The notes under the pieces: generated by a model
What the model was told of the DNA's origin: nothing
Seen by the model: the letters and a program-made list of their open reading frames with translations, nothing else
Databases searched by the model: none
NCBI RefSeq assembly: GCF_028692895.1
Contig: NZ_JAQUWN010000006.1
Span: 1-64,000, forward strand
Source: Pseudodesulfovibrio sp.
GTDB lineage: Bacteria; Desulfobacterota; Desulfovibrionia; Desulfovibrionales; Desulfovibrionaceae
Reading direction: 5' to 3'
Length of the DNA: 64,000 nt
Shown here: positions 31,679-34,592 of the stretch, one piece after another
How the letters are laid out: the number at the start of each line of letters is the position of its first letter
Position numbering within the stretch: the stretch's first letter is position 1
Program-made: the position numbers and the translations under genes

Positions 31679-33556
31679 CTATTCGCAGAGGCCGAGGGCC
31701 TTGCGCTTCGCCTTGATGCGCGCGTCGAACATCTCTGCCGTCTTCACCGGATCGGGTTCGATGAAGAACGTCGCGCCGACCAGGTCCTCCAGGCCGGAGA
31801 CGGCGAGGTTGGTCACCGTCTCGGACCCGAGGATGTTCGGCGGATGGCCGAGGTGTGTGTAGATGCCCGACGCCACGGCATAAAGACCGATGGCCGCCGC
31901 CTTTTCCGAGTACCATTCGGGCGAGGACGCCCCCACGGGCAGGTCGGAGATGTCCACGTTCAGCTCGTTGGCCAGGGCGGCGCAGAGCTGGAGGATGCGG
32001 GCGTTGTCCACGCAGGAGCCGTAGTGGAGAACGGGCGGGATGCCCAGCGCGCCGCAGACCTTTTTGAGGCCCGGTCCGGCGTGCTCGATGGCTTCGGGCA
32101 CCAGCAGGCCCGCCTTGCCCGCCGCCGTGGTCACGCAGCCGGTGACCAGGACGAGGATGTCGCGCTTGATGAGCTCCCTGGTCAGGCCAACGTTCAGGGA
32201 GTCCTGTTTGATCTTGGGGTTGTTGCAGCCCACGATGCCCACCGCGCCCCGGACGTCGCCCGCGGCGATGGCCTGGACCAGCGGGGTCAGGGAACCGCCC
32301 AGGGCCTCGATGACCGCCTCGTTGGAGAAGCCGGTCATGATCTCCACGGGTTCGCCGGGAATCTCCACCCGGCCGGGGTCGCGCTCGGCAAAGGCCTCCA
32401 CTGCCAGGGACACGATCTCGCGGGCCTGTTGCATGGCCGTTTTCGGATGGAAGCTGAAGTGGATGGCCCCGGTGAAGCGCGCCTTGTCGGCGGTGTCGAT
32501 GAACCGGGTGTGGTAGCAGCCCGCGATCTGGACCAGGCTGGGCATGATGCACTGGTAGTCCACCACCACGGCCTCCACCGCGCCGGTGAGGATGGCCAGC
32601 TCGGTCATCAGGTGGTTGCCCGCCATGGGGATGCCCTGGCGCATCAGCAGCTCGTTGCCCGTGCAGCACAGGCCGGCCACGTTGATGCCGGCGGCCCCCA
32701 GCTCCCTGGCGCGGGCCGTCAGGTCCGGCTCGCGCGCGGCGGCCAGGATCATCTCCGAGACCACGGGGTTGTGGCCGTGGACCAGGATGTTGACCTTCTC
32801 CTTCTTGATGACGGCGAGGTTGGCCGTGGACCGCTTGGGCGTGGGCGTGCCGAAGATGACGTCGGAGAGCTCGGTGCCGATCATGGAGCCGCCCCAGCCG
32901 TCGGCCAGCGCGGTCCGGGCCGCGTGCAGCATGGTGTTGGGCGCGTCGTTGTCGCAGCCCATGTGGGTGCGGTGCATCATCTCGGCGATCTCGCGGTCCA
33001 CGCCGCGCGGGGTCAGGCCGAGCCTCTCCCACTTTTCGCGCCGCACCTTGGGCACGCGGGCGAGAAAGGACACCGCCTTCTTGCGCGACCCGAAGTCCCC
33101 GAAGCAGCATTCCATCAGGTCTTCGGCCACCGCCATGGTCTCGCGCCCCTCGGTTTCGATGCCGACCTCGGCGGCCAGGCGGCGCAGCTTGGCCTCGTCG
33201 GTGATGCGGTAGTCGGAGGTCTCGCCCTCCACGATGGCCTCCAGGACCTCGATGAGGTCGCGGCCGTGGTCGGAATGTCCGGCCGCGCCGCCCGTCACGA
33301 AGCGGCCGAAGTTGCGGGCCACCACCACGTCGGCGTCCGCGCCGCAGACGCCGCGCGGGTTCTTCTCGCTGATGCGGCACGGGCCCATGGTGCAGTTGCG
33401 GCAGGTGGTGCCCAGTTCGCAGAATTTGCAGTGGGGCGTCTGTTTCGCGAGCCGTTCGTGCACGGTCTCGACGCCCTCGGCCCTGCCCTTGCGGATCATC
33501 GCCTTGGCGTCGTCCCAGATGGTCAGCTCGTCAATGGGTTTCGGTTCCTTCGCCAT
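31679..33556 (-). CDS. cooS: Anaerobic carbon-monoxide dehydrogenase catalytic subunit
   Basis: HCKFCELGTTCRNCTMGPCRI, VLHYGSCVDNARI, GCVTTAAGK. Confidence 0.97.
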   Translation of the reverse strand: MAKEPKPIDELTIWDDAKAMIRKGRAEGVETVHERLAKQTPHCKFCELGTTCRNCTMGPCRISEKNPRGVCGADADVVVARNFGRFVTGGAAGHSDHGRDLIEVLEAIVEGETSDYRITDEAKLRRLAAEVGIETEGRETMAVAEDLMECCFGDFGSRKKAVSFLARVPKVRREKWERLGLTPRGVDREIAEMMHRTHMGCDNDAPNTMLHAARTALADGWGGSMIGTELSDVIFGTPTPKRSTANLAVIKKEKVNILVHGHNPVVSEMILAAAREPDLTARARELGAAGINVAGLCCTGNELLMRQGIPMAGNHLMTELAILTGAVEAVVVDYQCIMPSLVQIAGCYHTRFIDTADKARFTGAIHFSFHPKTAMQQAREIVSLAVEAFAERDPGRVEIPGEPVEIMTGFSNEAVIEALGGSLTPLVQAIAAGDVRGAVGIVGCNNPKIKQDSLNVGLTRELIKRDILVLVTGCVTTAAGKAGLLVPEAIEHAGPGLKKVCGALGIPPVLHYGSCVDNARILQLCAALANELNVDISDLPVGASSPEWYSEKAAAIGLYAVASGIYTHLGHPPNILGSETVTNLAVSGLEDLVGATFFIEPDPVKTAEMFDARIKAKRKALGLCE

Positions 33557-33613
33557 AGTGCCTCCAAAGGATGGTTGTCCCGGGGATTGGACCGCGCCAG
33601 CCCGGTGGGTGAA

Positions 33614-33631
33614 GAGAAAGGCTCTCTTCCC
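33614..33631 (-). promoter_or_regulatory. Conserved leader element near predicted +1 of cooS (minus strand GGGAAGAGAGCCTTTCTC)
   Basis: 16/18 identical to element 34529..34546 at matched position. Confidence 0.6.
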
Positions 33632-33662
33632 GCCAGATGTACGCGGACGAGGAGGCTGCGTA

Positions 33663-33678
33663 TGTCAGATGGCCGACA
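33663..33678 (-). promoter_or_regulatory. CooA-type operator TGTCA-GATGGC-CGACA upstream of cooS
   Basis: Matches CooA consensus TGTCA-N6-CGACA. Confidence 0.8.
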
Positions 33679-33713
33679 ACCGGGGTATGAAATGCGGAAA
33701 AGTCCGGGGCGGA

Positions 33714-34370
33714 TCAGGAATCCGCCAGGGCCGCCTTCTCCAGCGCGGCCATGTCCGGGATGAGGTAGACCCTGCGCGCCTGTTTCAGGACCAGCCCCGC
33801 GCGGGCCATGTCGCCGAGCAGGGTGGATACGGTCTGGCGCGTGGCCCCCATGAGCTGGGCCAGTTGCTCTATGGTCAGGTCCAGGGTGACGAGCACGCCG
33901 TCCTCGCGCTTGACGCCGGAATGCCGCGCCTCGGCGAGCAGAAACTCCATGAGCCGGGTGTAGATGTCCTTGAAGGCCAGGCCGCCGATGATGAGGAAGG
34001 AGTTCTTGAGGATATGGCCGAGGACCCGGACCATGGTCCGGGTGAAGTCGGGCATGGTGTCCATGATCCGCTTGACCGAGCGGACGTTGGTCAGGAGCAG
34101 TTCGGCGTCGTCCAGGGCCTGGACGTAGCAGTCGGAGTGGGTGGAATAGACGTCGCCGGGGTTGAGGATGCCCAGGGTGAATTCCTTGTCCTCGTACGCC
34201 AGGTAGATGCGCACGCGCCCGCGCGACACGATGAAGACGAGGTTTTCCTCGGTGTCGGGCGTGAAGATGATGCTCCCGCCGGGGAACGTGCGAGCCCCGA
34301 TCAGGCCGCGCAGCTCGTGCATGTCCTCCCGCGCGAGTTCGTCCAGCAGATTGACCCCGGAAAATTTCAT
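33714..34370 (-). CDS. cooA: CooA-like CRP/FNR family CO-sensing regulator
   Basis: DENLVF-like sensor region, GDVYSTHSDCYVQA aligned with CooA GDMFCMHSGCLVEA, HTH TIEQLAQLMGATRQTVSTLL; SD gggggagc. Confidence 0.88.
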   Translation of the reverse strand: MKFSGVNLLDELAREDMHELRGLIGARTFPGGSIIFTPDTEENLVFIVSRGRVRIYLAYEDKEFTLGILNPGDVYSTHSDCYVQALDDAELLLTNVRSVKRIMDTMPDFTRTMVRVLGHILKNSFLIIGGLAFKDIYTRLMEFLLAEARHSGVKREDGVLVTLDLTIEQLAQLMGATRQTVSTLLGDMARAGLVLKQARRVYLIPDMAALEKAALADS

Positions 34371-34528
34371 GCTCCCCCCGATGGTTGGCCGTATGGCAAC
34401 GCGCATAGCACACGCGGCCGGAATGGTCTAACCCGCCCGGCGTTCCCGGGACGGGCGCCGCGCGATCGCACCCCATGCAACGAGGACCCGGCGCGGGCCG
34501 GGGGGACGGGGCCGGTCCCCCGGGCCGG

Positions 34529-34546
34529 GAGAAAGGGTCTCGTCCC
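34529..34546 (-). promoter_or_regulatory. Conserved leader element near predicted +1 of cooA (minus strand GGGACGAGACCCTTTCTC)
   Basis: 16/18 identical to the cooS element. Confidence 0.6.
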
Positions 34547-34576
34547 TCCTCCGTATCGGCGTTTGCGGGCGGTGTA

Positions 34577-34592
34577 TGTCAGCCAGCCGACA
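34577..34592 (-). promoter_or_regulatory. CooA-type operator TGTCA-GCCAGC-CGACA upstream of cooA
   Basis: Matches CooA consensus. Confidence 0.78.

Follow-up and report, generated by a model that had tools for sequence, protein, structure and literature searches.

The window, by which we mean the whole 64,000-nt stretch of DNA analyzed here, from a sulfate-reducing Pseudodesulfovibrio sp., carries a CooA-type operator upstream of cooS and a second one upstream of cooA, and downstream of each, about where transcription is predicted to begin, lies a nearly identical 18-nt sequence. The question that this locus raises is whether the shared sequence is a working part of CooA promoters in general, as the original prediction had proposed in describing a conserved 5'-leader hairpin, or whether it reflects the history of these two promoters in one lineage. 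The reading that we favor, with a probability of roughly 55%, is that the locus has two CooA class II promoters, that the distal cooA promoter was copied from the cooS promoter or kept like it, and that the cooS mRNA opens with a hairpin. The features are collected in Table 1.

Table 1. Features of the cooS-cooA locus, in window coordinates
Feature	Position	Strand	Basis or remark
cooS, anaerobic CO dehydrogenase catalytic subunit	31679..33556	-	TIGR01702, 693 bits, above cutoff
Conserved leader stem-loop, CCGGG (33605..33601) with CCCGG (33584..33580)	33580..33605	-	Upstream of cooS Shine-Dalgarno sequence
7-bp hairpin GAAGAGA-GCCTT-TCTCTTC, predicted 5' end of cooS mRNA	33611..33629	-	Pairing rules
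18-nt element, cooS copy, GGGAAGAGAGCCTTTCTC	33614..33631	-	Predicted +1 near 33629; lineage-specific
-10-like hexamer TACATC of cooS	33636..33641	-	T at nt 22 after operator
CooA-type operator of cooS, TGTCGGCCATCTGACA	33663..33678	-	Kept before cooS in 24 Pseudodesulfovibrio and ~50 more distant loci
cooA, CO-sensing CRP-family regulator	33714..34370	-	Start MKFSGVNLLDEL by homology
Likely ancestral sigma70-like proximal cooA promoter, TTAGAC-N18-TATGCG	34402..34431	-	Sequence reading
18-nt element, cooA copy, GGGACGAGACCCTTTCTC	34529..34546	-	Predicted +1 near 34543; outer stem pairs lost
-10-like hexamer TACGGA, distal cooA promoter	34550..34555	-	Poor consensus match beyond TA
CooA-type operator upstream of cooA, TGTCGGCTGGCTGACA	34577..34592	-	Sequence match

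Two CooA-type promoters with class II geometry

The regulator encoded at this locus is CooA by sequence: the top PDB match of the cooA product is CooA-1 (2fmy; E value of 1.4e-52), and R. rubrum CooA (1ft9) matches with an E value of 2e-35. The listed open reading frame opens at 34406; the ATG at 34370 is favored as the start by homology and by a GGGGGAG ribosome site, and it is kept in relatives. Upstream of cooA lies dnaE. A CooA-dependent promoter presupposes a CooA in the same genome, and here it is present alongside both operators.

Both operators are 16-bp palindromes near TGTCGGCNNGCCGACA, which is the consensus reported upstream of cooS (PMC545781). With leader nucleotides numbered from the operator's final base, TA falls at nt 22 to 23 in both promoters, and the distance from the operator center down to the first T in the -10-like hexamer is 29.5 nt in each. 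The operators and this class II spacing had both been predicted for cooS and cooA, and both are found at the positions given. In the class II geometry of CRP, the activator is centered at -41.5, and the similar spacing here places the predicted +1 of each promoter at nt 34 (Table 1). The operator position predicted in the window, ~-41.5, compares with -43.5 and -38.5 for the R. rubrum operators. A search of the open literature found no mapped transcription start for a Desulfovibrio cooS gene.

The arrangement of operator, N21, and TA occurs with zero mismatches at two places in the 3.69-Mb genome, which are the cooS and cooA promoters only. A third palindrome (C48:8167) was rejected as a further CooA-type promoter, since the TA spacing is missing there. 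TA is present at nt 22 to 23 in 22 of 24 Pseudodesulfovibrio cooS leaders, the window included, and in 44 of 53 more distant ones; over these 77 leaders, the operator and T22/A23 are nearly fixed, while most spacer columns are almost without information. Based on operator match, spacing, and the presence of CooA, we infer that both promoters belong to the CooA-dependent class II type and are switches of a known kind, whose activity would depend on CO. They resemble the CooA regulon of R. rubrum and the Desulfovibrio cooS/coo operons in operator consensus, in having a CooA orthologue, and in the class II-like distance from operator to -10. Unlike the known regulon, for which only the cooSC and cooM operons are given as CooA targets (PMC545781), the window adds an operator and promoter before cooA itself.

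The distal promoter of cooA

The other Pseudodesulfovibrio cooA loci that were tested showed no CooA operator before the gene, and many relatives have a sigma70-like stretch of the TTGGAC..GTGCTAT type just upstream of the gene. Since the proximal stretch is retained in the window while the other tested loci of the genus have no operator, the distal CooA promoter is a gain of this lineage. Its -10, TACGGA, is weak. The cooA operator marks an extra, distal promoter that would bring about positive autoregulation, which would mean that a CO-sensing switch built on one operon can gain a feedback loop in a single lineage by way of a second, target-like promoter.

At three loci of other lineages (L010, L105, and L120), cooA and cooS are likewise each preceded by a CooA operator, so that cooA autoregulation may have more than one origin. 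One Pseudodesulfovibrio genome, G091 (L013), has CooA and a CooA-type operator and is missing an orthologous cooS, so that the targets of CooA may differ there.

An 18-nt sequence shared by the two start regions

The two copies of the 18-nt element are identical at 16 of 18 positions. They begin at nt 32 (cooS) and nt 31 (cooA), so that their distances from the operator differ by no more than 1 nt, and they span approximately -3 to +15 relative to the predicted +1. When up to 2 mismatches are allowed, the genome contains these two sites only; the identity that the original prediction had noted is upheld, and the element was rejected as a genomic repeat or as a regulator site used elsewhere.

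We regard it as unlikely that the match is a coincidence, aided by the purine-then-pyrimidine composition that follows the start site. When the two 80-nt regions were dinucleotide-shuffled, an in-phase match of 16/18 arose in 1 of 40,000 shuffled pairs, and a match of 16/18 at any offset arose in 2 of 6,000. The sequence is of low complexity, the finding was picked out of a large window, and in-phase matches of at least 15/18 arose in 15 of 40,000 shuffles, all of which favor chance; however, the probability is small even after several comparisons, and chance does not readily account for the register of both copies with the operator. Copying, or conversion that keeps the two promoters similar, fits better. 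Identity between the promoters is 12/24 in the spacer versus 16/18 in the element (Fisher P value of 0.01), and outside the spacer and element there is no evident similarity. These values are compatible with an old copy in which the start region has been kept alike, and because homology is this patchy, with the spacer at 50% and nothing evident beyond, copying is not proven.

The 18-nt element is missing from the 23 other Pseudodesulfovibrio cooS leaders, in which the operator and the -10 TA are conserved, and from ~50 more distant cooS leaders, which also keep both. A one-mismatch search of 285 genomes of the family found it in 10 others, a rate close to that of the reversed control pattern, and in none of these at a cooS locus. 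At L010, L105, and L120, the cooA and cooS leaders agree at no more than 7 to 11 of the 18 positions that follow the -10, which indicates that loci with two operators do not as such share the 18-mer. CooA promoters do not require the 18-nt element, which is special to one lineage; in its place relatives have other sequences, some of which are also hairpins.

These observations make it very improbable that the element is a functional 5'-leader RNA element conserved in CooA promoters generally. That proposal drew on the 16/18 identity of the copies and on their conserved loop, and it had itself named as refuting evidence the pattern that is found here, namely orthologous loci that keep the operator and not the 18-mer. 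The control-level frequency in 284 family genomes, with never an occurrence at cooS, the dissimilar leaders of the other two-operator loci, and the lack of any Rfam match all argue against it as well.

Hairpins near the predicted start of cooS mRNAs

By pairing rules, the cooS copy folds into a perfect 7-bp stem that starts from the predicted +1 and leaves almost no unpaired 5' nucleotides. In the cooA copy, the 4 inner pairs (GAGA/TCTC) are kept and the outer three pairs are mismatched. A fold of 33 nt of the cooA transcript gives a minimum-energy structure that differs from the hairpin, and within its first 20 to 24 nt a bulged local stem is possible (-5.7 to -7.4 kcal/mol). The same stem-loop is thus not found in the cooA transcript, and the 5' hairpin that had been proposed is solid in cooS and not equally shared by cooA. 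Because the outer stem is lost and the longer fold differs, a function for the hairpin in cooA is doubtful.

In the CooS tree, the window falls closest to its sister species L041 and L042 (support of 95/93 for the clade), which have an unrelated 6-bp stem, GTGGCG/CGCCAC, that starts 3 nt further on than that of the window, so that all 3 members of the clade have a hairpin at the predicted 5' end. Since no base-by-base alignment of the two stems is possible, we treat this as positional recurrence and not as formal covariation. When a 5'-end stem is defined as a perfect stem of at least 6 bp starting at nt 31 to 42 after the operator, it is present in 4 of 24 Pseudodesulfovibrio leaders (0.28 expected), of which L041 and L042 are sisters, so that the count represents about three independent cases, and in 5 of 53 more distant leaders (1.22 expected); neither count was reached in any of 60 shuffles. 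In the 53 distant leaders, stems are also raised in the following 12 nt (7 versus 2.4 expected), and later positions are not raised. A test on 87 sites took in at least two operators read in reverse (L030-1332 and L167+159), and we rely on the cooS-oriented counts.

Most cooS leaders have no strong hairpin at +1, and a genus-wide thermodynamic signal was not detected there, the mean z score being no different from zero, because the hairpin is carried by a minority only. A weaker form of the original claim therefore holds in part: hairpins of unrelated sequence do recur at the same place, but only in a minority of cooS leaders. These leaders form a small set for comparison, in which selection may act on where a 5' hairpin lies and not on its sequence. 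A bolder conjecture, which we put forward tentatively and think unlikely, is that CooA-activated cooS mRNAs have been under recurrent selection for a short hairpin at +1, arising independently from unrelated sequences in several lineages and coupling induction by CO to mRNA stability, and that the organism of the window has extended this promoter-plus-hairpin module to cooA, which encodes its CO sensor.

The GAGA-N5-TCTC dyad over the start could instead be a DNA site at which a second regulator represses both promoters. Positions +1 to +19 are a typical location for a repressor site, the inner dyad and the central CCTT are both conserved between the copies, whereas a plain hairpin needs no such center, and the genome has 2 perfect copies of GAGANCCTTTCTC, both at these promoters. 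A regulator with only two sites would be required, however, and there is no candidate for it; in addition, the sequence at this place is unrelated in the sister species, and the cooA copy does not form a perfect dyad. We consider this explanation to have a low probability.

Proposed mechanism

In the reading that we favor, CO-bound CooA centered at ~-41.5 would activate cooS and the genes after it. In the same lineage, CO-bound CooA would also fire the distal cooA promoter, and this would add positive autoregulation on top of an older sigma70-like promoter. The distal promoter is probably a copy of the cooS promoter from the operator to approximately +15, or has been kept similar to it by conversion, and the shared 18-nt initially transcribed sequence would be the best-preserved remnant of that copying.

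The most likely effect of the cooS hairpin would be to protect the mRNA from decay that depends on the 5' end. RppH and RNase E require single-stranded 5' termini, and 5' structures stabilize mRNA (PMC3997798); it is from this preference that we infer stabilization of the cooS mRNA. The predicted cooS hairpin is like the 5' stabilizers of the ompA/papA type in being short, in lying at the very 5' end, and in leaving few unpaired nucleotides, and it is unlike them in that the cooA copy in the window is degraded. A weaker alternative is that the cooS hairpin affects promoter escape.

Other structures and motifs in cooS leaders

A second stem-loop, nearer the ribosome site, is better conserved than the +1 hairpin and has counterparts at the same place among L037 to L061 (Table 1). 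Stem-loops ending 19 to 24 nt before the start codon are present in 15 of 24 Pseudodesulfovibrio leaders, compared with 1.4 expected and with 0 of 60 shuffles reaching this count, and their stems show compensating changes (CCGGG/CCCGG, GCCGGG/CCCGGC, ATCGGACT/AGTCCGGT, and GTTGGGCA/TGTCCGGC). RNAalifold found no consensus structure in a MAFFT alignment of 17 leaders, because the stem sequences vary and are aligned wrongly by MAFFT, and the leader stems were instead analyzed stem by stem. Rfam covariance models gave no plausible match to the leaders, the hits being weak and biologically implausible. The leaders are thus like the cis-regulatory RNA families of Rfam in that a structured leader precedes a regulated enzyme gene, and unlike them in having no plausible match among those families. 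The analysis points in this way to a cooS leader structure that is better conserved than the one with which it began. The idea, suggested by L037 and L040, that a pyrimidine tract in the start region pairs with the Shine-Dalgarno sequence was rejected (mean z score of -0.09 over 25 leaders).

A different start-region motif, roughly AATAGGGTTT, is found at nt 35 to 48 after the operator in L037, L040, L045, L054 to L056, L060, L061, and L146. Its retention in many other Pseudodesulfovibrio leaders, by which this zone seems constrained in sequence as well, and the location of the 18-nt element at approximately -3 to +15 would both suit a role in which the initially transcribed sequence that the two promoters share adjusts how RNA polymerase escapes or pauses early on, and not mRNA decay. 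The sequence differs between clades, however, and no direct evidence speaks for such a role, which we think improbable. L146 belongs to another genus, yet its CooS is 89% identical, and together with the AATAGGGTTT-type motif this suggests horizontal transfer of the locus.
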